Shown here piece by piece: positions 15,665 through 27,477 of a stretch of DNA of 64,000 nt (positions within the stretch are counted from its first letter, which is position 1; each line of letters begins with the position of its first letter). This DNA is from Streptomyces hundungensis (GTDB lineage: Bacteria; Actinomycetota; Actinomycetes; Streptomycetales; Streptomycetaceae). The translations under genes and the position numbers were made by a program. The stretch lies in assembly GCF_003627815.1 (NCBI RefSeq), contig NZ_CP032698.1, forward strand, positions 930,001 to 994,000, in the 5' to 3' direction. Under the pieces are notes generated by a model. It did not search any database. It had not been told where the DNA came from and saw nothing but the letters and a program-made list of their open reading frames with translations.

Positions 15665-15819
15665 GGGGCTCTCTCTTCATGTGGTGTCGGGCGAAGTGTG
15701 CGTACCCGCCGTGGCGCGTGCCACGCCATCCGGGCCGGCGAAGACAGTACCGGCCGAAGAGTCGAGGGCCCTTCGTGTGGTGCGTGAGCGGCCTCGTCCG
15801 TCGGGGCGCACACGCGGGT

Positions 15820-15857
15820 GGGGGATGTGAGCGGCGTCTGTGCCCCTCACATCCCCC
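15820..15857. terminator. Hairpin terminator downstream of the minus-strand gene at 15875
   Basis: GGGGGATGTGAG and CTCACATCCCCC form a perfect 12-bp stem with a 14-base loop, 17 bases beyond the stop of the 15875-16273 gene. Confidence 0.65.
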
Positions 15858-15874
15858 ATCCTTCTACCGCTTCG

Positions 15875-16273
15875 TCAGAAGCGACCGCCCGTGGCACGAG
15901 TGAGGGGGCCGTGTCCGCGTCGTACGGATACTCGGCCGAGACTGTAGGCGCCCGCCAGGGCCGCCAGTACGCCTCCTCCCACACCGGCCGCGATCTGCTT
16001 GCGGTTCCGCACCACCGTCCATGCGGTCGATGCCATGTGAACCGACTTTCCGGGCACCGTGGCCAGCATCTCGCCGCCGGACTTGGCCTTGGAACGCAAC
16101 GCCAGCACCTTGCTGCCCGTCGTGTCCTTGGCCTCGGACGCCGCCGACTTGGTGTCGCTCGCAGCCGACGCGGCCTTGGTCGTGGCCGACCGAACTCCGC
16201 TCCTCGCAGAGCGCGCCGTGTTCTTGGCCGCAGTGCTTTCCGTCGCCTCGTTCTTCTTCGCTGTTTCCGACAT
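15875..16273 (-). CDS. Ala/Ser/Lys-rich membrane-anchored hypothetical protein
   Basis: The 132-residue product begins with a low-complexity region rich in Ala, Ser, Thr and Lys (MSETAKKNEATESTAAKNTA), probably helical or disordered. A segment VRNRKQIAAGVGGGVLAALA follows, with a likely TM or amphipathic helix (about 93-112), then a basic Arg/His tail. The N-terminal part resembles histone-like Lys/Ala-rich or stress-associated tails, but I do not recognise a family. It stands alone between the BrkB-like gene and the halogenase operon, and has its own hairpin terminator. Confidence 0.7.
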   Translation of the reverse strand: MSETAKKNEATESTAAKNTARSARSGVRSATTKAASAASDTKSAASEAKDTTGSKVLALRSKAKSGGEMLATVPGKSVHMASTAWTVVRNRKQIAAGVGGGVLAALAGAYSLGRVSVRRGHGPLTRATGGRF

Positions 16274-16416
16274 GAGGTCCGTTTAGCCGCTGTTTTGAAA
16301 TCGAAACGGTCAAGTGCGGGTGAAAACTGGCCCGTTCTTCTCCGGCCCGTTTCGACGTCTTCGGGGAGAGCCGTTCGGTCGGCACGGCCCACGTGACGGC
16401 GGCGGCCCGGGGGGCG

Positions 16417-17919
16417 TCAATCTCGGGACGCGTACTCCTTGGGCCGTGCTTCTGCCGTGGCGAGCGGCGAAGCAGCGCCCCGCTCCCCGGTGCCCGCGGC
16501 TTTGAGCAGGCGCAGGAGCGGGCTGGTCATGATGGTGGTGCCGAGGGCGACGAGGGTGAGGATGGCGAGCATCCGGGCGTCGATGATCCCGGCGTCGTAA
16601 CCGATCTGGATGACGATGAGTTCGGTCAGGCCGCGGGCGTTGAGCAGGACGCCGAGGACCAGCGCCGGGCGCCGCGGCATACCGGTGAGCCATGCGCACA
16701 GGCCGGGGCCCGCGACCTTGCCGACCGTGGCCAGGGCCAGCAGCCCGAGGAAGACCAGGACCGTCGTGCCGTCCCAGGTCAGGGCGCTGAGGTCGGCGGT
16801 GAGGCCGAAGCCGAAGAAGAAGAACGGCAGCAGCACTGTCTTCGCGGTGCCGGTCAGGCCTTCCACGACGGGCCCGGTCCGGTTCTTCGGCCAGACGAGC
16901 CCGACCAGGAGCGCCCCGATCAGCTGGTGCACGCCGAGCACGGCCGTGAGCGCCGCCGCCGAGGCGACCCCGACCACAAGGACGATGCCCGAGTCGGCCC
17001 CGCCCCCCTTCCGGGAGGCCCACCGGGCCAGCAGCCGCTTGACCGGTCCGAGGAACAGGGCCACCACCGCCATCGTGGCGGCGGCGTTGACCAGCACCAT
17101 GGTGGGGTCGGAGCCGTGGGCGGTGGCCAGGATCCCCGCGAGGACCAGCCACCCCGCCCCGTCACCGATCGCCGCCGCGAACAGACTCAGGCGTCCCGGT
17201 TCGGTACGGGAGATGCCGAGGTCGGACAGGAGCCGGGCGAGGACGGGGAACGCGGTGATGCTCAGTGCGCAGCCGACGAACAGGACGAAGGCGACGCCGT
17301 GCCCGCGGGGACCCGCGTAACGCGCCGCCAGGGGCACGGCGACGAGCGCTCCGAGGGCGAACGGGACGAGGACGGAGGACTGGCTGACCAGGAGGGCCCG
17401 GGTCGCCGCGCCGCGCAGCCGCATTCCGGCGAGCTCCTGGCCCACCCCGAACATGAAGAGGATCAGGCCGAGTTGGGCCAGTCCGTCGAGGGGTCCGAGC
17501 GTGCCGCGCGGGAAGAGCCAGCCCATGGCGCCGGGTGCCAGGTTGCCCAGGAGGGAGGGCCCGAGGGCTAGGCCCGCGCAGATCTCGCCTACCACCGGGG
17601 GCTGGCCGAGGCGGCGGGCGAGCGCGCCCCCGAGGTGGGCGGCGGTCAGCACGACGGCGACGGCGAGCAGGGAGTGCCCGGCCGCGCCGAGCTTCGGCCC
17701 CGAGGCGGCAGCGGCGGCCACGTCCGTGCCGGGCATGGCCAGGGCGCTGCCGGCGATGAGGAGGAGCGGCAGGACGGCGGTCACGGTGATCGCCGTCCCC
17801 TGGCGATGCCTGGGCGTCGACGCGGGGGCCACTTCGCCTCGGCGGTCGTTGCGGCCATGGCCGAGGTCGGATCCCGGGGGCGCGGACGACAGCGGGGCGG
17901 TGGTGGGTTCGTGGGCCAT
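16417..17919 (-). CDS. CPA2-type cation/proton antiporter, last gene of the halogenase operon
   Basis: The 500-residue protein has about 12-13 TM segments. Monovalent cation:proton antiporter-2 motifs include LGQPPVVGEICAGLALGPSL, FGVGQELAG, GCALSITAFPVLARLLSDLG, AAIGDGAGWLVLAGI and NARGLTELIVIQIGYDAGII. It begins one base after the stop of the acyl-CoA dehydrogenase-like gene, so it is part of that operon. Homologues of this type accompany several antibiotic clusters, where they are assumed to export product or balance protons; that role is inferred here. The N-terminal 40 residues are an unusual hydrophilic extension. Confidence 0.9.
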   Translation of the reverse strand: MAHEPTTAPLSSAPPGSDLGHGRNDRRGEVAPASTPRHRQGTAITVTAVLPLLLIAGSALAMPGTDVAAAAASGPKLGAAGHSLLAVAVVLTAAHLGGALARRLGQPPVVGEICAGLALGPSLLGNLAPGAMGWLFPRGTLGPLDGLAQLGLILFMFGVGQELAGMRLRGAATRALLVSQSSVLVPFALGALVAVPLAARYAGPRGHGVAFVLFVGCALSITAFPVLARLLSDLGISRTEPGRLSLFAAAIGDGAGWLVLAGILATAHGSDPTMVLVNAAATMAVVALFLGPVKRLLARWASRKGGGADSGIVLVVGVASAAALTAVLGVHQLIGALLVGLVWPKNRTGPVVEGLTGTAKTVLLPFFFFGFGLTADLSALTWDGTTVLVFLGLLALATVGKVAGPGLCAWLTGMPRRPALVLGVLLNARGLTELIVIQIGYDAGIIDARMLAILTLVALGTTIMTSPLLRLLKAAGTGERGAASPLATAEARPKEYASRD

Positions 17920-17920
17920 G

Positions 17921-19105
17921 TCAGTGCGCCTCGTAGATCATGTCGCGCATCAGCTCGCTGGCTCCGGCCGCGATCGTTCCCGCCGTCGCGTCGCGGTGCA
18001 CGCGCGCCGCCGCTGAATCCTCCAAGTAGCCCTGCGCGCCGTGGAGTTGGGAGCAGGCCTGGGCCGCGGAGAGGGCCAGTTCGGTGGCGCGCAGTTTCAG
18101 CACCGACGCCGTACGCGTGTCGAGCCGCCCCCGGGTGTGCAGCCATGCCGCGTGGTAGGCGTAGCGGCGCACCATGTCGAACTCGCCGTACAGCTCGCCC
18201 AGTCGGTGCCGCACGGACTGGTGTGTCCCCAGGGGCACGCCCTTGATGCGGCGGGAGCGGACATGGGCGTCGACCAGGCGCAGGGTGTGGCGCGCGCCGC
18301 CGACCGCCAGCAGGCCCGCCACCAGACGTTCGAAGTCGAGGGCGCGCATCAGCTGGGTGAGGGCCCGGTCGCGTCGGCCGAGGACCGCGTCCGCGGGCAG
18401 TTCGACGCCCTCGAAGGTGATCGTGGCCAGGTCGGCGGAGCGCCAGCCGAGCATCGGCTGGGGGCGCCGGGTGATGCCCGGGCTTTCGGCGTCGACGAGC
18501 AGCATGCTCGCTCCGGTCAGCCCTCGTTCGGGGCCGGAGCCGGGGGCGGGCAGACGGGTGCGGGCGAGCACGACGAGCAGGCCGGCGCCGGTGCCGTTGG
18601 CGACATAGCTCTTGTGGCCGTCGAGTAAGAACCCCGCGTTCTCGCCGTCGCCCCTGGGGGCGGCGTAGGTGCGCAGGTCACGGAGGTCGGAGCCCGCGTC
18701 GGGTTCGCTGATGGCCAGCGCGGTCACGCGCTCGCCCCGGTAGGCGGGCGGCAGATGGGCCGCTCGCTGCTCGGCCGAGCCGAACATGAGGAGGTAGGAG
18801 AGCGCCATGTAGGCATGGACTCCTACGGCGGCCCGAATACCCGCGTAGCCGCTCCCTCCCAGCTCTTCCAGGAGGACGGCGCTGCGCAGGAAGTCCTCGC
18901 CCGTGTGCCCGATCTCCAGCAGACCTGCCGCGCCGAGCGCCTTCCAGCCCTCGGCTCCCACCCGGCGCCGCTCCTCCCACGCGTCGGCGTGGGGCAGCAC
19001 GCACTCGGCGAGCCGCTCCCGCACCTGGAGGCGGAAGGCGTCGTGTTCGGCGGTGAGGAAGGGGAATTCACTCGCCAGGTCCCGGTCGGGAAGGGAGGTG
19101 CTCAT
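17921..19105 (-). CDS. Acyl-CoA dehydrogenase-like flavoprotein, KtzA-like candidate for cyclopropane formation
   Basis: The true start is ATG 19105, overlapping the stop of the adenylation gene (ATGA); 394 residues. The FAD/acyl domains are clear: ALAISEPDAGSDLRDLRTYA (130-147), DGHKSYVANG and ITFEGVELPADAVLG. The Glu that serves as base in medium-chain enzymes (usual IYEGT) is replaced: TIAAGASELMRDMI at 377-390 has Ala. A Glu259 in RALDFERLVAG sits at the position used by isovaleryl-CoA and long-chain dehydrogenases. In kutzneride biosynthesis a protein of this type (KtzA) closes a cyclopropane on a chlorinated isoleucyl carrier-protein thioester without net oxidation. Here the partners are the same, so that role, or alpha,beta-desaturation, is plausible. 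Confidence 0.88.
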   Translation of the reverse strand: MSTSLPDRDLASEFPFLTAEHDAFRLQVRERLAECVLPHADAWEERRRVGAEGWKALGAAGLLEIGHTGEDFLRSAVLLEELGGSGYAGIRAAVGVHAYMALSYLLMFGSAEQRAAHLPPAYRGERVTALAISEPDAGSDLRDLRTYAAPRGDGENAGFLLDGHKSYVANGTGAGLLVVLARTRLPAPGSGPERGLTGASMLLVDAESPGITRRPQPMLGWRSADLATITFEGVELPADAVLGRRDRALTQLMRALDFERLVAGLLAVGGARHTLRLVDAHVRSRRIKGVPLGTHQSVRHRLGELYGEFDMVRRYAYHAAWLHTRGRLDTRTASVLKLRATELALSAAQACSQLHGAQGYLEDSAAARVHRDATAGTIAAGASELMRDMIYEAH

Positions 19106-20709
19106 GACGCCGCTCCCGCGGCGACGGGACGGTTGTCCAGGGTGGCGAGCAGGGCGTGCCGGTCGACCTTGCCGGTGGCGGTCAGCGGGAGTTGCGCGCA
19201 CAGCCGCAGATCGGCCGGGACCATGTAGGGAGGCAGGAGAGCCCTCAAGTGCGCCCGAAATGCTTCGGGTTCGCGCTCGTCCGTGTCCGGCACGACGAAG
19301 GCGATGAGTTCCTGGCCGCCCTGTGCGTTGGGCCGGGTGGTCACGAAGCTCTGGCGTACGGCGTGGTGGGCGTCCAAGTGGTAGGAGATCTCGCCCAGTT
19401 CGATGCGGTAGCCGTGGACCTTGACCTGGTCGTCGAGGCGGCCCTGGAACACCAGGTGGCCCCGCTCGGACAGGAACGCGCGGTCGCCGGTGCGGTACAG
19501 GCGCCGCGGTTCGCCGTCGAGGTCGAGTTCGGTGAAGTGGCGGGCGCTGGTCTCGGACGCCCCGAGGTAGCCGGGGGTGAGGCCGGGTCCGGCGAGCAGG
19601 ACCTCGCCGGTCTCGCCGGGCTCGCACAGGCGCCCGTCGTGGACCACATAGGCGCGGGTGTTCTGGATGGGTCGGCCGATGGGGAGGCTGGTCTCGTCCG
19701 GGGGGAGCGTGCGGACGGGGTGGTAGGTGGCGAAGGTGGTGCACTCGGTGGGTCCGTAGACGCTGACGATCCGGTCGGGTCCGTACCGTCGCAGGGCGGC
19801 GGCCATATGGGTCAGGGAGTGTGCCTCGCCGCCGGTCAGGACCGTGGTGACGCCGGCCAGGATGTCCGGGGCCTCGTCCACGACCGTGTTGAACAGGGCG
19901 GTGGTGAGGAAGAGGACGTTCACCCGGTGCTCGGCCAGCACCTTGCCCAGCCGGCTGAGGCGGACGAAGTGCTCCGGGTACAGCACACAGGTGCCGCCGT
20001 TCAACAGGGCGCCCCAGATCTCGAAGGTGGCCGCGTCGAACGAGGCGGGTGCCAGCTGGAGCAGGACGGTGTCGTGGTCCAGTCGCGCGTAGCGGGCGCC
20101 GTGGACGAGCCGGACGATGCTCCGGTGTCTGATCGGTACGCCTTTGGGAGCGCCGGTGGAGCCGGAGGTGAAGTTGATGTAGGCGATGTCGTCCGGGGAT
20201 CCGCGGTACGGGGGCGTTTCTTGACGGATTGTCAGCGATGTCAGGTCGACCGGGATCATGTGTCGTCCCGGCAGCCGGACGGCGATCCTGTCGGCCTCGG
20301 AGGCCCGGGTCAGGACATGGCGGCCGTCGGTGCGCTCCAGCAGGGCGCGCAGCCGTCCGTCGGGCCAGGACGCGTCGGCGGGGAGGTAGGCGGCTCCGCA
20401 TTTGACGGTGGCCAGCAGGGCGATGATGAGCTCCGCGGAGCGGGTGATGAGCACGGTGACGGTGTCGCCGGGGCGGACGCCTGCCTCCCGCATACGTGTC
20501 GCGAGGTCGTTGGCCAGTCCGTCCAGGGTGCGGTAGTCGAGCCGGCCGCCGGGGTGAACGAGCGCGGTGGCCGCGGGTCGGCGGGCCGCCTGTTGCTCGA
20601 ACAGTTCCTTGACGCCGAGCTCCGGAAAGGCGGTGGCCGTACCGTGGTTGAGCGCCCGGTGGGCTGCCAGTGCCGTGGGTGTCGGCGTCGGGTGGTGCGG
20701 TGCGGTCAT
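19102..20709 (-). CDS. Stand-alone amino-acid adenylation protein, isoleucine-like code
   Basis: The 535-residue protein is one NRPS adenylation domain with no fused carrier or condensation domain. Core motifs: A3 YINFTSGSTGAPKGVPIRHR, A4 SFDAATFEIWGALLNGG, A5 VYGPTECTTFATY, A7 RLYRTGDRA, A8 GRLDDQVKVHGYRIELGEI and A10 LTATGKVDRHAL. Aligned by eye to GrsA-Phe, the ten pocket residues read D-A-F-F-L-G-V-T-F-K. This is close to known isoleucine codes, so Ile or a similar branched aliphatic acid is predicted. It would load the carrier protein at 21482-21745. Start and stop both overlap neighbours by ATGA, giving tight coupling to the thioesterase and the flavoprotein. Confidence 0.93.
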   Translation of the reverse strand: MTAPHHPTPTPTALAAHRALNHGTATAFPELGVKELFEQQAARRPAATALVHPGGRLDYRTLDGLANDLATRMREAGVRPGDTVTVLITRSAELIIALLATVKCGAAYLPADASWPDGRLRALLERTDGRHVLTRASEADRIAVRLPGRHMIPVDLTSLTIRQETPPYRGSPDDIAYINFTSGSTGAPKGVPIRHRSIVRLVHGARYARLDHDTVLLQLAPASFDAATFEIWGALLNGGTCVLYPEHFVRLSRLGKVLAEHRVNVLFLTTALFNTVVDEAPDILAGVTTVLTGGEAHSLTHMAAALRRYGPDRIVSVYGPTECTTFATYHPVRTLPPDETSLPIGRPIQNTRAYVVHDGRLCEPGETGEVLLAGPGLTPGYLGASETSARHFTELDLDGEPRRLYRTGDRAFLSERGHLVFQGRLDDQVKVHGYRIELGEISYHLDAHHAVRQSFVTTRPNAQGGQELIAFVVPDTDEREPEAFRAHLRALLPPYMVPADLRLCAQLPLTATGKVDRHALLATLDNRPVAAGAAS

Positions 20710-21470
20710 CGGGATCCCTCCAGCCGCGCGTTGATCGTTTCCAGCAGTCGGTCCCGGTGGGTGTCGAGGAAGAAGTGGCCTCCGGGCAGCTCCACCACCT
20801 CACAGTCGCCGCTGGTGTAGAGCTTCCAGTCGCGCATGGCGGCGTACCCGTCGACCGGGTCCTCGCGCCCGTAGAGGGCGGTGAGGGGAACGTCAACACC
20901 CGGCGCGCCGTGGCGGTCGTCCCACAGCTCGGCGAGCCTCATGTCGGCGCGCATCGTCGGCAGGAACAGCCGCATCATCATCGGGCTGTCCAGGATCTCG
21001 GCGGGTGTGCCGCCCATGGCGCGCACCGCGTCGAGGTAGCGGTCCCCCGGCAGTTCGTGGAGGTACGGGCGGGCCTGCGGCGCGTTGGGGCTGCGGCTGC
21101 CGGACACGAACAGGCGCCGGGTGGCGCCGGGGTGTGCCGACGCGGCCAAGTGAGCCATTTCGTAAGCCAGTCGGGCGCCGAAGCTGTGTCCGTAGAAGGC
21201 GTGGGGCGAGTCGAGCAACCCGGCCGCGGAGAGCGCGTCGAAGGTCTCCGCGAGCAAGGAGTCCCAGTTCTCGTACATCGTCTCGCGCAGCCGGGGGCCC
21301 CGGCCGGGCAGCCTGACAGCGACCAGTTCGACCCCGGCGTCCAGGCCCTCGGCCCAGCTCCTGAAGAGGTCGGGGCCGCCTCCCGCGTAGGGGAAGCAGA
21401 TCAGCCGGATGCGGCGGGGGCCCGCCGCGCGCCGCAGGACCGGCGCCCATCGATCGCTGTCGGACCGCAC
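20706..21470 (-). CDS. Type II thioesterase
   Basis: GTG 21470 with GAGGAGG 6 bases upstream; 254 residues. The fold starts with IRLICFPYAGGGPDLFRSWA. The nucleophile motif is FYGHSFGARLAYEMAH (Ser96), the acid lies in ALYGREDPVDGYAAMRDW and the His in VELPGGHFFLDTHRD. Such enzymes remove stalled groups from carrier proteins or release a finished free amino acid. With no condensation domain in the operon, release of the modified amino acid is the more likely use. Overlaps the adenylation gene by ATGA and follows the carrier gene by 11 bases. Confidence 0.92.
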   Translation of the reverse strand: MRSDSDRWAPVLRRAAGPRRIRLICFPYAGGGPDLFRSWAEGLDAGVELVAVRLPGRGPRLRETMYENWDSLLAETFDALSAAGLLDSPHAFYGHSFGARLAYEMAHLAASAHPGATRRLFVSGSRSPNAPQARPYLHELPGDRYLDAVRAMGGTPAEILDSPMMMRLFLPTMRADMRLAELWDDRHGAPGVDVPLTALYGREDPVDGYAAMRDWKLYTSGDCEVVELPGGHFFLDTHRDRLLETINARLEGSR

Positions 21471-21481
21471 GGCCGTCCTCC

Positions 21482-21745
21482 TCAGTCCCGGTCGTTCTGG
21501 AGAATGGAGGCGGCGATGTCCCGCACGGCGCTCCGGGCGAACAGGTCGTCCGGGGTCAGGGCGTCCTCGCCGTAGGTCTCCTCGGCCTGGGCGATCAGCC
21601 GGATGGCGGTGAGCGAGGTGCCGCCCGCCTCGAAGAAGTCGTCGGCAGCGGTCTCCACCGTGAGACCGAGGTCTCGGCAGGTGGTGAGGACCCACTGCTC
21701 CAGTTCTTCCTGAGTGGAAGTCTGGGTCTGCACGCTGTTCGACAC
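21482..21745 (-). CDS. Stand-alone peptidyl/acyl carrier protein
   Basis: I choose GTG 21745, preceded by AAAGGA; 87 residues. The phosphopantetheine site is DFFEAGGTSLTAIRLI with Ser44, in the peptidyl-carrier style (GGTSL). It would hold the aminoacyl thioester for halogenation and later steps. It sits directly after the halogenase and before the thioesterase. A phosphopantetheinyl transferase is not present in the window and would have to come from elsewhere in the genome. Confidence 0.93.
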   Translation of the reverse strand: MSNSVQTQTSTQEELEQWVLTTCRDLGLTVETAADDFFEAGGTSLTAIRLIAQAEETYGEDALTPDDLFARSAVRDIAASILQNDRD

Positions 21746-21762
21746 CGTGGTGATCCTTTCGT

Positions 21763-22719
21763 TTACTGGTTGGTCCGGAACGGGTGACCGTTGACCGTGC
21801 TGTCGACGAAGCGGTTGTGGCCGTAGGTGTCGGTGCCCGAGGTGAGGACGTTGCCGAACCGGTCGAGGCTGGCCTGGCCGCCGAACTCCTCCAGCTCGGT
21901 GGAGTACGGGTACACCTTCACCGACGTCGGCAGGTAGCGGCCCGCGAAGCCCAGGCGCATCTGGTCGGTGAGGCCGCTGTGCGGGTGGGACGCGTGCATC
22001 AGCGTCGACCAGAAGACGATGAACTGGCCCTGGCGCATGACCTGGGAGACGGCCTTGGACTCGTCCGGGCTCCAGTTGGGGTCCTTCTGGAGCTGGCGGT
22101 AGTCGTGACCGAAGAAGCCGCGGCGGATGCCGTTCTTCTCGGTGGCGTTGATGGCGTCCGGGTTGTAGTCCATCGTCTTGGACTCGTCGTAGTTCATCGT
22201 CTTGTGGGACCCCGGGATGAACTGGAGGCAACCGTTCTCGACGCTGGCGTCCGTGAACGCGGTCCAGACGGTGATGGTGCCGCCGAAGTCGGCGTCCTCG
22301 GGCCAGACGATCTGGGGGTGCTTGGACCCGGCGACGTTGGAGAAGTTGTCGGCCTGGTGCCAGTCGGTGCCTTCGTCACCCGGGTACTTGGGGAAGAACT
22401 CCGAGCGCCAGCACAGGGTGTCCGGGCCCAGGATGCTGGAGACCCGGTCGACGATCTCGGGCCGCGTGATGTGGTCCGCGAGGAAGTCGATGTCCAGATG
22501 CCGGTCGTAATTCGCGAGGTTGGTGTTGCCGGACACCGCGCGGCCGCCGCCGTAAATGGCCTTCTTGGTATTCAGCAGCTTCGGACGGAGGGCCTGCAAG
22601 TTGGCCTCCATCTCGTCCTTCTCGTACAGGTCGAAAGGACCGATGTATCCGTCGCGCTGGAACTTCTCGAGCTCCTCCGCGCTGAGGGAGAACTTCTTGG
22701 TATCGGTTATCTGGTTCAT
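21763..22719 (-). CDS. Non-heme Fe(II)/2-oxoglutarate-dependent aliphatic halogenase, SyrB2/CytC3/KtzD type
   Basis: The 318-residue protein begins [20 protein letters not shown] and is SyrB2-like along its whole length. The key site reads [11 protein letters not shown]: His121-Gln-Ala123, where hydroxylases have Asp or Glu in place of Ala123. This HxA motif opens a site for chloride on iron and marks true halogenases. The second iron ligand is His242 in [10 protein letters not shown] and the 2-oxoglutarate anchor Arg255 in [12 protein letters not shown]. Other shared blocks are [27 protein letters not shown] and [12 protein letters not shown]. It should chlorinate an unactivated carbon of an aminoacyl carrier thioester. 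It heads the operon. The frame extends upstream to 22779 without homology. Confidence 0.95.
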
Positions 22720-24118
22720 ATCTCCACTTTCTTGTGTGGGGGGCCATGCGCAAGCAGGCAGGCAAGCAGGAGCACGCATGGGGAATCTGGCCGGAGTCGC
22801 AGGAAAACAACTCGTCGAGCCACTCCGCCTGACGCAAAAGGCTCAAATGAGCCCGCGGGGAACATTCACCCGGTGAAAGCGAGTCCATCACGTCGATTTC
22901 GCCGAGGTCAATAAGAATCCTGGCTCTCTTGCCGGTCCTTCTGTCCGCGTGAGGAACGGCGGCAGCGGTCTGCCACCACGGCTTCCGGGCGGGGGCGCAG
23001 ACCGGGTCCGACGCATCGCGGTTACACGTGATACGAGAACGCAAGCCTCGGTTCGCGATGAGGGATATGCGCGGGTGAGGGGGAGGTGACGATGGGGCGG
23101 CGCACAGGCGCGCACGAGTGTGAAGCCGGGGGCACACCGCCGGACGCCGTCCTGGAGTCGGCCGTCAGCCGGACATCACGCGGCCCTCAGCCGGTCGTCA
23201 GCCAGCCGGCCGTCAATCGGACGGGGGTGGCCCAGCTCTGCCGGGCGATGGGCATACTCTCGGGCCGCGCGGACATGCCCGGCGATCGGCGCACGGGCGC
23301 CTGCCCATGGCCTCGGATGGGGCGTCCGAGTTCGAGGTGAACGCGCGTACCCGCCTTCTTGAAACAGGGTGTACGGCGGCGCTGTGACGGTGCCCGAAAC
23401 GCGTCGTTCGGGTACCCGAAAGGAAAAGGTGGGTGCTACCTGGTGTTAATACGTCGGTGTCCCGCATCAGCATCCCCCGGTGAACAAGCCGTGCTCAACA
23501 TCAGCGCGGGGTTCCGCACCTTCGCCTTTGGGCCGGGTAAGCCGCAGCAATCCGCGGACCGGAACGAGGTTTGTGGCTTCGATCCAGGCCGCTCAATCAC
23601 ATTCGCATCCCCCGCCGTAGAGATCAAGTTCTAATTCCCACACAGGAGTTGAAAAGGTCATCTGCGCAGGTCAGGGCGGTTATGACAAGGCGTCAGGGGT
23701 GTCCAAGGAGTGGACGTCTTACGGCGCGGCGCCCGGACCCATGGCGAAGGCGCGGGCGGGCGCCGCCGCGGTGTGACCATGATCACCCGCCGGGCTGGCG
23801 GGCAGGTGTTCACGGCGCGCCGAACTCTCGGCGCACGCCGGGCAGTTGGCACCGCGCGGAGGCGGGCCGAACCCTCGGCGTGCGTACGGCAGTGGGCAAC
23901 GCGCCGAGACGGGCCGAACCCTCGCCGCGCATACGGCAGTGGGCAACGCGCCGAGACGGGCCGAACCCTCGCCGCGCATACGGCAGTTGGCAACGCACCC
24001 ATACGGGCCGAACCCTCGCCGCGTAGGGCAGTTGGCATCGCGAGAGGCGGCCCGCAGCAGCCTCACCGCGCCCCAAAGGTGCCCCACCCCCCGCCGGAGG
24101 GTGTGGTGGCGGACGCGT
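22720..24118. other. Gene-poor 1.4-kb region upstream of the halogenase operon
   Basis: I find no convincing protein gene on either strand. The region must contain the halogenase promoter near its left end. A relatively AT-rich patch lies at about 23440-23640 (including GTGTTAATACG). The right third holds the 47-bp tandem repeats. The frames that are open here have no family motifs, no good ribosome sites and a composition that follows the repeats. Confidence 0.6.
23816..24047. repeat. Tandem array of about five 47-bp repeats
   Basis: Units start at about 23816 (degenerate), 23863, 23910, 23957 and 24004, exactly 47 bases apart. Each begins CGGGCCGAACCCTCG and carries a GCAGTTGGCA or GCAGTGGGCA word near base 28. 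The middle copies are nearly identical and the outer ones are diverged. There are no spacers between units, so it is a minisatellite and not a CRISPR. It lies 70 bases from the 3' end of the benE-like gene. Confidence 0.85.
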
Positions 24119-25423
24119 TTAGGCGTCATCTTCCGTACGGGTGCCGGTGGTTGAGCGGACCGGACCGACCGCCGGGGCGGGAGTGCGGGCGGCAGGAACA
24201 GTGGGGTCCTTGCCCGGCGGTGGTGGACGGCGCGGCAGACGGACGCGCATCACCACCAGCGTCAGCGCCCCCGCCAGCAGACCCCAGAACGCCGATCCGA
24301 TCCCGAGCAGCGTCACACCGGAGGCGGTCGCCAGGAAGGTGATGACGGCGGCCTCCCGTGAACCGTCGTCGGCCAGCGCCGAGGCCAGCGAGTTGCCGAT
24401 GGTGCCGAGCAGTCCGAGCCCTGCGATGCCGAGGACGAGGGCGCTGGGCAGCGCGGTGAGGAGCGCACCCACGGCGCCGCCGAACACTCCGACGAAGAGG
24501 TAGAACACACCGGCCCACACCCCGGCCAGATAGCGCCGGTCGGGATCCTCGTGTGCCTCGCGCCCGGTGCAGATGGCGGCCGTGATGGCCGCGAGGTTCA
24601 GACCGAAGCAACCGAAGGGCGCGAGGAGCAGGTTGACCGCACCGGTCCAGCTGATCAACGGCGATATCGGCACACGCTCGTACCCTGCGCCGCGCAGCAC
24701 CGCGACGCCCGGCAGGTTCTGCGAGGCCATCGTCACGACGTACAGCGGCAGCGCGACGCTGATGATCACCTGCAAGGAGAACTCCGGTGCGGTGAACACC
24801 GGTTGGGCGATGTCGAAGCGCACACCGGCCGGTCGCAGCGAGCCCTGCGCGGCGGCGACCGCCACACCCACCGCGAGCGCTCCGATGATGGCGAATCGGG
24901 GCGCGAGCCGCCGCCCCACGAGGTAGACCGCGAACATCGAGAAGACGAGCGCGAAATGGCCGTGCATACGGGCGAACAGGCCGGTGCCGAACTGCACGAG
25001 CACCCCGGCCAGCAGCCCCGCCGCGATGGGGACCGGGATCCGGCTCATGACCCGCTCGAACCAGCCCGTCAGACCGCTGAGCACGATCAGCGCGGCCGAG
25101 ACGAGGAAGGCGCCGATCGCCTGGGCCATCGTCACGCCGCCGAGCCCCGATACCAGGAGCGCGGCGCCCGGGGTGGACCAGGCCGTCACGACCGGCGCTC
25201 GGTAGCGCAGGGAGAGCCCGATGCAGGTGGTCCCCATGCCGACGCCGAGCGCCAGCATCCAGGAGGTGAGTTCTCCGGGCCCGGCGCCGGCGGCCTGGGC
25301 GGCGGTGAAGACGATCGCGGCGGAGCTGGTGACTCCGACCAGTACCGCGATGAGACCCGCCGTGACGGCGGACGCCGGCGCGACGCGGCGTATCTTTCGC
25401 TCGGTCACGCTCACCACTCCCAC
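24119..25423 (-). CDS. BenE-family benzoate/H+ symporter-like transporter
   Basis: The 434-residue protein has about 12 TM segments. BenE family blocks are MAQAIGAFLVSAALIVLSGL, ASQNLPGVAVLRGAGYERVP, PFGCFGLNLAAITAAICTGR, DPDRRYLAGVWAGVFYLFVG and the end-of-barrel GSAFWGLLAGALTLVV. It probably imports benzoate or a related aromatic acid with a proton; the substrate is not certain. Neighbours are a YbaK-like gene in the same direction and an XRE-cupin regulator in divergent orientation. No ring-degradation genes are nearby. Confidence 0.9.
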   Translation of the reverse strand: MGVVSVTERKIRRVAPASAVTAGLIAVLVGVTSSAAIVFTAAQAAGAGPGELTSWMLALGVGMGTTCIGLSLRYRAPVVTAWSTPGAALLVSGLGGVTMAQAIGAFLVSAALIVLSGLTGWFERVMSRIPVPIAAGLLAGVLVQFGTGLFARMHGHFALVFSMFAVYLVGRRLAPRFAIIGALAVGVAVAAAQGSLRPAGVRFDIAQPVFTAPEFSLQVIISVALPLYVVTMASQNLPGVAVLRGAGYERVPISPLISWTGAVNLLLAPFGCFGLNLAAITAAICTGREAHEDPDRRYLAGVWAGVFYLFVGVFGGAVGALLTALPSALVLGIAGLGLLGTIGNSLASALADDGSREAAVITFLATASGVTLLGIGSAFWGLLAGALTLVVMRVRLPRRPPPPGKDPTVPAARTPAPAVGPVRSTTGTRTEDDA

Positions 25424-25529
25424 TCTCTTGGGCGCTGTTCCTCGGGAAGGTCGCCGTGCACGATCCGATCGCGTCGCGGCGTGCTGTCGGCCGCCCTGCC
25501 GCTCGGCGGCCCGGGCGTTGCGCGCGCCC

Positions 25530-26021
25530 TCACGAAGTGACCGCGAGCAGTGTTCCGTTGGTCAGTCGCAGGAGTTCCGACGCGGTCGTCGGGAAGACGG
25601 TGCGCGGTGTGCCGGCGGCGGCCCAGATCTGGGGATAGTCGGTGAGCGCCTCGTCGACGACCGTCGGCAGCTGCCCGGGGTGGCCGACCGGGGCGACTCC
25701 CCCGATGGCCTGCCCGGTGGCCTCGCGGACCTGTTCCGCCGAGGCGCGCCGAAGCCGGCCGCGCCCCCAGCGCGCCGCGAGCGCGTCCGTGTCGACCTTG
25801 TGGCGGCCGCTGGTCAGCACCAGGACGGGCTCGTTGTCGGAGAGGAACACCAGGCTGTTGGCGATCGCGCCGACGTCGCAGCCGAGCGCGGCGGCGGCCT
25901 CGGCGGCGGTGCGGGTGGACTCGGCGAGCTCGCGCACCTGTCCCGGTACGCCCGCCTCGGCGAGGCAGGCGGCCACCTGTCGGCTCCGGGTGGGAAGGGC
26001 ATCATGCTGGGGGGAGGACAT
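25530..26021 (-). CDS. YbaK/EbsC-family (aminoacyl-tRNA deacylase-like) protein
   Basis: The 163-residue product has the YbaK fold: CDVGAIANSLVFLSDNEPVL, then LTSGRHKVDTDALAARWG and TGQAIGGVAPVGHPGQLPT. The last block (GGVxPxG) is diagnostic. Family members hydrolyse mischarged Cys- or Ala-tRNA(Pro) or act as free-standing editing domains. It lies upstream of the BenE gene on the same strand (about 105 bases apart) and divergent from the XRE-cupin gene. Confidence 0.9.
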   Translation of the reverse strand: MSSPQHDALPTRSRQVAACLAEAGVPGQVRELAESTRTAAEAAAALGCDVGAIANSLVFLSDNEPVLVLTSGRHKVDTDALAARWGRGRLRRASAEQVREATGQAIGGVAPVGHPGQLPTVVDEALTDYPQIWAAAGTPRTVFPTTASELLRLTNGTLLAVTS

Positions 26022-26041
26022 ACTGCTCCTAGACGTATCCT

Positions 26042-26061
26042 GCGTTCCATATACAGAACGC
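26042..26061. promoter_or_regulatory. Palindrome between the YbaK and XRE-cupin genes
   Basis: GCGTTC-CATATACA-GAACGC is an inverted repeat with 6-bp arms around an AT-rich centre. It lies 20 bases upstream of the YbaK ATG and 85 bases before the regulator. Possible operator of the XRE-cupin protein. Confidence 0.5.
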
Positions 26062-26146
26062 CATGCTCGCGAAACGTTAGGCCGAGGGCGTCGTCGCAGT
26101 CAACGCCCGACAGATGAAGCGCCCGACAGATGAACGGAGAAGAGTC

Positions 26147-26680
26147 GTGGGACTGGCGGACCAGGTGGGGAGCCGTTTGAAGGAGCTCCGAACCGGCCGG
26201 GGGCTCTCCCTGTCCGAGTTGGCGCGGCGCTCCGCGATCGGCAAGGGCACCCTTTCGGAGCTGGAGACCGGCCGGCGCAACCCGACCTTGGAAACCCTGT
26301 ACGCGCTCACCCGCGCCCTGGACGTTCCCCTCAGCAGCGTTTTGAACGTCGACGAGCCGGTCAGGGTGTCGGGCGAGGCCGTGGACGCGTATCTCACCGA
26401 GAAGTTCGAGAACGCCGAGGCGGTCACCGAGGTGTTCCGCATACGGATCCGGGCCCATGCGCACCAGCGGTCGGCCGCCCACGCCCCCGGCACCGAGGAA
26501 CGCATCGTCGTCCTGACGGGAACGGCTCAGGTGGGCCCCGCCGATTCGCCTCAACTGGTCCGCCCGGGCGAGCAGGCACACTGGGCCGCCGACGTCCCCC
26601 ATGTGTACGGAGCGCCCTCGGAAGACGTCGAGGCTGTCCTGTTCGTGCGCTATCCGGCGGCGGCCCCGTCGCCGGCGTGA
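26147..26680 (+). CDS. XRE-cupin transcriptional regulator
   Basis: I place the start at GTG 26147, with GGAGA six bases before it; an in-frame ATG at 26114 is possible. The N-terminal HTH_3 reads VGSRLKELRTGRGLSLSELA, then IGKGTLSELETGRRNPTLET. The C-terminal cupin barrel (about 100-165) includes EERIVVLTGTAQVGP, VRPGEQAHWAADVPHVY and AVLFVRYP. Such proteins sense a small ligand in the cupin and regulate adjacent genes. The divergent YbaK and BenE genes are the obvious targets. Confidence 0.9.
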   Translation: MGLADQVGSRLKELRTGRGLSLSELARRSAIGKGTLSELETGRRNPTLETLYALTRALDVPLSSVLNVDEPVRVSGEAVDAYLTEKFENAEAVTEVFRIRIRAHAHQRSAAHAPGTEERIVVLTGTAQVGPADSPQLVRPGEQAHWAADVPHVYGAPSEDVEAVLFVRYPAAAPSPA

Positions 26681-26871
26681 CCCGCGCGCGCGGCCCACCG
26701 GGCGTGCCGCACCTGAAAGCCGCGCCGGACCAACTCGCCGTCACCGTCGCGTTTTTGCGTCAATGATCGGGCAACTCGCAAGCAGAGCAACCCCGTTGAG
26801 TCCTGGGTGGGCCTGTCAAAGGGCGCCCCGGCAGTTTTCATCGGTGTCATCGTCGGAACAGGAGCACGTTC

Positions 26872-27477
26872 ATGCGTCTCTACGCCCAGACCCCGGCGCG
26901 CCGGAGTCGTCAGCTCTTCGCGGACCTCGTCGCGCTGCTCCTGATCGCGATCGCGGTGAAGTTCGCCCTGGTCGTCCGTGACGCGATCCTGACGCTGGCC
27001 GAGCCGGGACGCAAGGCCCAGAGCGCGGGCGACAGCCTGGCGTCCGGTCTGCACGACGCCGGCAACGCGGCCTCCAAAGTCCCCTTCGTGGGCGACTCAT
27101 TGAAGAAGCCGCTCCAGTCCGCCGCCGACGCCGGGACCGGCCTCTCCGAGGCCGGACGGTCGCTCCAGGACACCGTGGGCCACGTCGCCACCCTGACCGC
27201 GGTCGTCCTGATCCTCCTGCCGACCGTGTTCATCCTCGTGGTGTGGCTCATTCCGCGGATGCGGTGGATCCGGCGCACCGCCACCACCCGGCGCCTCCTC
27301 GACTCCCCCGGCGGCGCCGACCTCCTCGCCCTGCGGGCGCTCACCGGGCCGCAGCGGCAGTTGGCCGCGATCCCGACTCCGCCGGGCGGTCTGGCCGACG
27401 CCTGGCGGCGCGGGGACCCTGACGTCATCGCCGAATTGTCGACCCTGACGCTCCGGCGAGCGGGGCTTCGACACTGA
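26872..27477 (+). CDS. Two-TM hypothetical membrane protein
   Basis: ATG with GGAGCA upstream; 201 residues. TM1 lies at about 15-35 (LFADLVALLLIAIAVKFALV), then an Ala/Ser/Gly-rich amphipathic section (about 44-100), TM2 at about 107-127 (TAVVLILLPTVFILVVWLIP) and a cytoplasmic tail with LRALTGPQRQLAAIPTPPGG. This layout recurs in Streptomyces as an uncharacterised conserved membrane protein. I know no function. It stands alone between the XRE-cupin gene and the convergent molybdenum hydroxylase gene. Confidence 0.85.
   Translation: MRLYAQTPARRSRQLFADLVALLLIAIAVKFALVVRDAILTLAEPGRKAQSAGDSLASGLHDAGNAASKVPFVGDSLKKPLQSAADAGTGLSEAGRSLQDTVGHVATLTAVVLILLPTVFILVVWLIPRMRWIRRTATTRRLLDSPGGADLLALRALTGPQRQLAAIPTPPGGLADAWRRGDPDVIAELSTLTLRRAGLRH

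Follow-up and report, generated by a model that had tools for sequence, protein, structure and literature searches.

What might a Streptomyces make with the genes of a cyclopropyl amino acid cassette, when no peptide synthetase stands beside them? The question is raised by a stretch of 64,000 nucleotides of Streptomyces hundungensis, bases 930001-994000 of a complete, single-contig genome of 8.39 Mb. The whole stretch is called here the window, and positions are counted from its first base. Six contiguous genes are found on its minus strand, from 22719 to 16417. They encode, in this order, a non-heme iron halogenase (HAL), a free carrier protein (CP), a type II thioesterase (TE), a stand-alone adenylation protein (A), a flavoprotein of the acyl-CoA dehydrogenase fold (ACAD) and an antiporter, and the gaps between them measure 17, 11, -4, -4 and 1 bp (Table 1). 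The original prediction for this DNA had named six tightly coupled genes of these families, and all are in place. Gene content lends good support to a genuine KtzD-C-B-A-type cassette joined by a thioesterase. The cassette is free-standing, and probably directs the formation of a free cyclopropyl amino acid, of the allocoronamic or norcoronamic type, through cryptic chlorination and thioesterase release.

The known counterpart is found in Kutzneria sp. 744 (locus L072), in which HAL, CP, A and ACAD follow each other in the same order and are 75, 57, 62 and 56% identical to the window proteins. The two cassettes have in common the halogenase clade and the clade of KtzA-like ACADs. They differ because the window features a TE gene between CP and A, lacks an adjacent nonribosomal peptide synthetase (NRPS), and hosts transporter and tRNA-editing genes around the operon. 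The likeness to KtzD, KtzC, KtzB and KtzA, originally proposed from the letters, is borne out by gene order, identities, adenylation code and trees.

The score of the halogenase against TIGR01762, the 'chlorinating enzyme' model, is well past the curated cut-off of 226.3 bits. The expected HxA motif, His121-Gln122-Ala123, is present. In a ten-row alignment H121, Q122, H242, R255 and R261 are invariant; Ala123 is common to six rows, and is replaced by Val in four more distant ones. We take HxA in place of HxD/E, the second His and the Arg to have the roles usual in halogenases. The solved relatives are SyrB2 (2fct, E 8e-133) and CytC3 (3gja, E 4e-120), the next best match being at 9e-11. A hydroxylase reading was rejected, as the protein carries HQA and scores well against TIGR01762. 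The tree described below gave no ruling on it: four weak PhyH rows, added as hydroxylases, have very long branches and fall in two places, and two of them carry WHQD or WHQE, the other two being without such a motif by simple pattern.

Contigs of GTDB genomes were scanned for relatives. Halogenase relatives were found in 235 stretches; the best 80 loci were kept and all were examined, and they are a sample of the closest relatives, not a census. WHQA is found in all 80. The nearest named one is from Streptomyces sp. ASQP_92, the halogenase of which is 99% identical. Three sets can be told apart: 37 loci with an Ile-type adenylation code and an ACAD (L066 and L070, in which the code is missing or partial, have been placed by kinship), 12 ACAD loci with Thr-type codes, and 31 loci lacking ACAD. 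In an IQ-TREE phylogeny of 92 rows the window halogenase belongs to a clade of 43 rows (support 96/93). Kutzneria L072 and three Pseudomonas loci belong to it, as do 33 of the 37 Ile-type ACAD rows; the four others (L075, L079, L080, L084) do not. SyrB2 and CytC3 likewise fall outside, CytC3 being paired with L033 (100/100). The operons of P. lactis (L050), P. lactucae (L051) and P. aeruginosa PA7 (L052) nest in this mostly actinobacterial clade, which suggests that they were laterally transferred.

Within the genus, matches at E <= 1e-130 were found in 24 of 392 genomes, ten of which (own included) reach at least 70% identity; the halogenase is therefore sporadic. The sole further halogenase-like match in the own genome (L034, G000:C1:1323091-1323969) is a His-Gln-Val (HQV) protein, 40% identical, and some 8 kb separate its gene from a condensation-domain region. 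His-Gln-Val is found at the HxA/HxD position also in the halogenase-like proteins of L035, L036 and L037.

The ten-letter adenylation code was read by motif anchoring, the anchors being set against what we take to be the GrsA positions. The code of the window, DAFFLGVTFK, is one letter apart from DAFFLGMTFK of L072. DAFFLGVTFK has been tabulated for cyanopeptolin positions holding Ile, sometimes Val, and in the same table DFWNIGMVHK is the Thr code (PMC2533009). A readable A protein is encoded in 36 of the 37 Ile-type ACAD loci. DAFFLGVTFK is exact in 30 of these, L048, L072, L079 and L084 have one-letter variants, and the codes of L051 and L070 are incomplete. The other 12 ACAD loci feature DFW-type codes, such as DFWNVGMVHK. 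The 31 loci without ACAD yielded 30 codes: five of DAFF type (L057, L060, L064, L071, L083), 15 of DFW type and ten others, one of which is garbled (L085). L057, L060, L064 and L071 share the Ile-like code DAFFLGVVFK, and the genes that follow encode a ketosynthase III (KS III)-like protein and a class-III aminotransferase. Sets combining DFW code, halogenase and KtzA-like ACAD are found in L081, L091, L094, L095, L099, L100, L102, L104, L108, L111, L112 and L113; nine of these 12 have a TE, and five host a BenE gene inside the operon. In L095 an alpha/beta-hydrolase gene follows the halogenase, and in L095 and L099 an FkbM-methyltransferase/carrier protein gene also does.

The flavoprotein, 56% identical to that of L072, shares about 38-94% identity with the first ACADs of the other halogenase loci, and at most 35.6% with the 29 other own-genome ACAD matches compared (of 35 found). 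In a FastTree phylogeny of 67 rows, which left out the second ACADs of L058, L062 and L065 (27-35%) along with 11 own-genome rows that were short or weak, 50 halogenase-linked ACADs are split from 17 own-genome paralogs with support 99. One clade (local support 99) includes 29 of the 38 Ile-type ACADs, those of the window and L072 among them, and nine are outside. The motif DFERLVAGLL, with the Glu of FERL kept, is common to the window ACAD and to the L072 protein in KtzA position. This Glu presumably acts as base in some dehydrogenases of the fold. A prolyl-carrier dehydrogenase (RedW/PltE) was considered and rejected, on the placement in the ACAD tree and on the match to the RedW model NF045652, 153.6 bits versus a cut-off of 650.

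The genome hosts 30 condensation-domain matches. The two closest to the halogenase are far from it, one ending about 369 kb away and the other beginning about 379 kb away. No NRPS surrounds the set, as originally claimed, and the condensation-domain search of the complete genome places none just beyond the window edges. The 80 loci were searched by tblastn with own-genome domains as queries (E 1e-10, at least 120 residues). Domains were detected in 3 of the 37 Ile-type ACAD loci (L058, L069, L072), in 1 of the 12 Thr-type ones and in 8 of the other 31, though five of the 37 loci do not reach 19 kb and a search of this kind could overlook divergent domains. A core thioesterase, defined as a gene on the same strand at most 3.5 kb after HAL, is found in 27 of the 37; L072, which lies beside an NRPS, has none. 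The pattern fits a thioesterase that would release the residue where a peptide synthetase does not take it. The correspondence is partial: L069 has both core thioesterase and condensation domain, and neither was detected in L043, L044, L048, L061, L062, L065, L066 and L070. HAL-CP-TE-A-ACAD is the arrangement in 21 of the 37 loci, in 11 of which an editing gene separates A from ACAD; its recurrence is therefore not due to chance. Gene order is also flexible, as L053, L054, L056, L059 and L076 are organized as HAL-A-CP-TE-ACAD. ATP-grasp genes are found near some operons (L038:3614-4843, L056:16356-17864), and their enzymes could build the product into a peptide.

These data are consistent with the following route. 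The adenylation protein would load an Ile-like, possibly Val, residue onto the free carrier protein, and the halogenase would chlorinate the gamma carbon of the bound residue. The KtzA-like flavoprotein would take the alpha proton, so that the alpha carbon displaces chloride and the ring closes. The thioesterase would then free the cyclopropane alpha-amino acid. Ile would yield allocoronamic acid or a stereoisomer, Val 2-methyl-ACC (norcoronamic acid; ACC, 1-aminocyclopropane-1-carboxylate).

Table 1. Genes of the cassette and of its upstream flank, with positions in the window
Feature	Position	Strand	Properties
Fe(II)/2-oxoglutarate halogenase, KtzD-like, HQA at residues 121-123	21763..22719	-	318 aa; PhyH/TIGR01762 439.3 bits; Ile/KtzD clade
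Free carrier protein, GGTS phosphopantetheine site	21482..21745	-	87 aa; PF00550 38.7 bits
Type II thioesterase, GHSFG	20706..21470	-	254 aa; PF00975 129 bits; solved relatives in text
Stand-alone adenylation protein, code DAFFLGVTFK (Ile/Val)	19102..20709	-	535 aa; TIGR01733 364.2 bits; AMP-binding
KtzA-like flavoprotein of acyl-CoA dehydrogenase fold, putative cyclopropane-forming enzyme	17921..19105	-	394 aa; PF00441 110.9 bits
CPA2-type monovalent cation:proton antiporter	16417..17919	-	500 aa; PF00999 (Na_H_Exchanger) 151.8 bits; start 1 bp past ACAD
BenE-family transporter, possible product transporter, pathway membership uncertain	24119..25423	-	PF03594 475.6 bits
Aminoacyl-tRNA editing domain protein, ProXp-x-like, pathway membership uncertain	25530..26021	-	PF04073 102 bits; PDB 2cx5 E 4e-34
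XRE regulator, divergent from editing gene	26114..26680	+	PF01381 53.3 bits; Cupin_2 19.5 bits, sub-threshold

Several points weigh against a free cyclopropyl product. The sequence shows genes, gene order, families and a substrate code, from which we infer every reaction, the product, its release and its export. The adenylation code fits Ile and Val alike, and L072 has been equated with the kutzneride cassette by name, not by match to the deposited KtzD sequence. The core thioesterase is absent from 10 of the 37 Ile-type ACAD loci, and a type II enzyme could proofread rather than release. Transfer in trans to one of the other NRPSs of the genome is also conceivable. According to this last explanation, the cyclopropyl residue is passed to an NRPS encoded elsewhere, and the thioesterase merely clears misloaded carrier. 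It draws on the number of condensation-domain matches in the genome, on the position of L072 next to an NRPS, and on the likeness of the thioesterase to free-standing type II enzymes such as RifR, its best solved relatives being 3qmw/3qmv and RifR (3fla). We regard it as rather unlikely, given the distance of the closest condensation domain and the prevalence among relatives of core thioesterases over detected condensation domains. The operon is moreover without any further acyltransferase-like gene, whereas Thr-type L095 has the alpha/beta-hydrolase gene mentioned above.

The end product could also be an amino acid that is chlorinated, hydroxylated or unsaturated, were the flavoprotein a dehydrogenase, as its fold, its weak match to the RedW model and the conserved FERL Glu might hint. 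The RedW match is however far below cut-off, the L072 protein in KtzA position carries the same motif, and the adenylation code is not what we take to be a proline code; such a product seems quite improbable. Kinship to the CytC pathway, part of the original prediction, fares worse. The free A, CP, halogenase and TE presumably match the CytC1-C4 gene set for armentomycin, and CytC3 is a close solved relative of the halogenase. CytC3 groups nevertheless with L033 outside the clade of the window, the code is of Ile type, and a KtzA-like ACAD gene is present; we know of no ACAD in the CytC1-C4 set. The substrate that CytC3 dichlorinates is aminobutyrate on a carrier, and armentomycin is depicted as a product of this kind (PMC8407142). 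A free chlorinated aminobutyrate made by a route of this type is very hard to reconcile with the present data. Of the original prediction, free release by the thioesterase stays plausible, given the core thioesterases and the few condensation domains detected among the Ile-type ACAD loci, and close kinship to CytC is rejected.

The free cyclopropyl amino acid proposed here has partial precedents. CmaA-E and CmaT presumably work in a similar manner, by cryptic chlorination, formation of the cyclopropane on a carrier and release of the free amino acid by a thioesterase. In that system the cyclase CmaC has another fold, and adenylation and carrier domains are fused in CmaA; in the window A and carrier proteins are free. 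A Pseudomonas strain, Ps834, has been described as carrying the coronamic acid cluster while lacking the remainder of the coronatine pathway (PMC8719888). Among the open-licence papers listed none dealt with a stand-alone ktzDCBA-like operon, or with editing enzymes encoded in clusters of this kind, which is no proof of absence.

Genes flanking the five biosynthetic ones have been monitored in the relatives. A homolog of the CPA2 antiporter gene is found at most 600 bp after ACAD in 8 of the 37 Ile-type ACAD loci. BenE homologs are found in 10 of the 37, in 5 of the 12 Thr-type ACAD loci and in none of the 31 others, and in three Pseudomonas loci a LysE-type gene then follows. The BenE gene of the window is the sole match to PF03594 above cut-off in the genome. 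Among 149 other Streptomyces genomes, 11 encode relatives at least 63% identical. In the six neighbourhoods examined out of these 11, a halogenase was present in one (L209) and missing in five; for G178, one of these five, a halogenase match is found on another contig. Export of the product may fall to one or several of the membrane proteins encoded nearby. The claim that the antiporter does so was a guess, as the antiporter recurs, but so do the BenE and LysE-type transporters.

The editing gene, which the original prediction had passed over, lies 2.8 kb upstream of the operon. Of the 37 Ile-type ACAD loci 17 have a PF04073-type gene, and of the 43 others none (Fisher p 1.6e-7, not corrected for kinship); the gene is found in 16 of the 27 loci with a core thioesterase versus 1 of the 10 without (Fisher p 0.010). 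In 12 of the 37 (L042, L045, L046, L050, L051, L052, L055, L068, L070, L075, L079, L084) the gene is set between A and ACAD. Hosts of such in-operon genes are Streptomyces, Nocardia, Pseudomonas (P. aeruginosa PA7 included), Pseudoalteromonas and an Archangium metagenome-assembled genome (a myxobacterium). L080 has three aminoacyl-tRNA editing genes around a single halogenase operon. In the tree of the editing proteins branches are long and support is confined to a few forks, so that it is compatible with one recruitment or two.

For both window and PA7 editing proteins the best solved relative is 2CX5; in contrast to that family, the genes sit here in or beside a biosynthetic operon. The window protein differs from ProXp-x because the usual Lys is replaced by Asn, as in L038 and L067; Lys is found in L052, L046, L079, L075 and 2cx5. 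The Lys presumably matters for the activity of the ProXp-x fold. The label ProXp-x for 2CX5 is given in a review (PMC11295145). A stand-alone editing protein of another family is described as protecting against canavanine, a plant antimetabolite (PMC10018355). On account of the 2CX5 likeness and of this precedent, the in-operon genes can sensibly be read as encoding an editing enzyme that targets a free aliphatic amino acid or gamma-chloro-Ile that has leaked, and the enzyme may keep a cyclopropyl-type amino acid out of proteins.

The case is weaker for the gene of the window. An XRE-editing pair is found at most 10 kb from HAL in L038, L040 and L067, and not in their kin L039 and L041; XRE genes recur near HAL in L038, L040, L067 and L049. 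Close copies of the window editing gene (77-81%) were however identified in 4 of the 149 other Streptomyces genomes. All four adjoin an XRE gene, and no halogenase was found in their 16.5-17 kb neighbourhoods. In three of these genomes (G017, G038, G078) such a halogenase is missing genome-wide, the only match in G017 being at 1.5e-4. In 101 further genomes of the 149 editing copies are only 40-53% identical. A pathway-specific role of the window gene was considered, and is weakened by these copies. Its linkage to the halogenase recurs in a subclade and is not exclusive, and its catalysis is uncertain. We infer self-protection by tRNA editing with more confidence for relatives with an in-operon gene than for the window.

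The operon span of 22719-16417 may be too narrow, as editing, BenE and XRE genes adjoin it and recur beside some close relatives; against a wider span, the three genes occur also without halogenase. A tandem array of 4.8 copies of a 47-bp unit is found at 23819-24042, between BenE and halogenase genes. A search for RNA leaders or riboswitches in 15800-27000 yielded a single sub-threshold match (27 bits versus a gathering score of 71), taken as fortuitous.

The original prediction had further imagined a product mimicking ACC, the ethylene precursor, in plants. Plant ACC oxidase is reported to convert mainly the 1R,2S form of 1-amino-2-ethylcyclopropane-1-carboxylate, a compound that also competes with ACC (PMC9510837). 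The KtzA product is (1S,2R) according to the title of the primary paper, cited in PMC12615548; DL-allocoronamic acid is named in a list (PMC4048297). Given the preference of the oxidase and the configuration of the KtzA product, mimicry could act only as weak inhibition, or if the stereochemistry differs, and the case for it is weak.

A broader proposal is put forward tentatively, as a serious possibility. Stand-alone ktzDCBA-plus-thioesterase operons, found in several phyla, may make a widespread family of free cyclopropane amino acid antimetabolites, and the producers may protect themselves through a dedicated, in-operon, ProXp-x-like enzyme that hydrolyses tRNAs wrongly carrying the product or the gamma-chloro precursor. 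The editing genes inside the operons of distant relatives deserve the closest follow-up. If the proposal is true, it could be tested on them whether producers shield themselves by editing tRNAs. In kutznerides the cyclopropyl residue is another one, 2-(1-methylcyclopropyl)glycine, and the purpose of the allocoronamate made by KtzA-D would become testable. These operons would also provide compact enzyme sets for cyclopropyl amino acids, and the Kutzneria cassette would be one NRPS-linked member of a larger, mostly free-standing cyclopropyl amino acid pathway.

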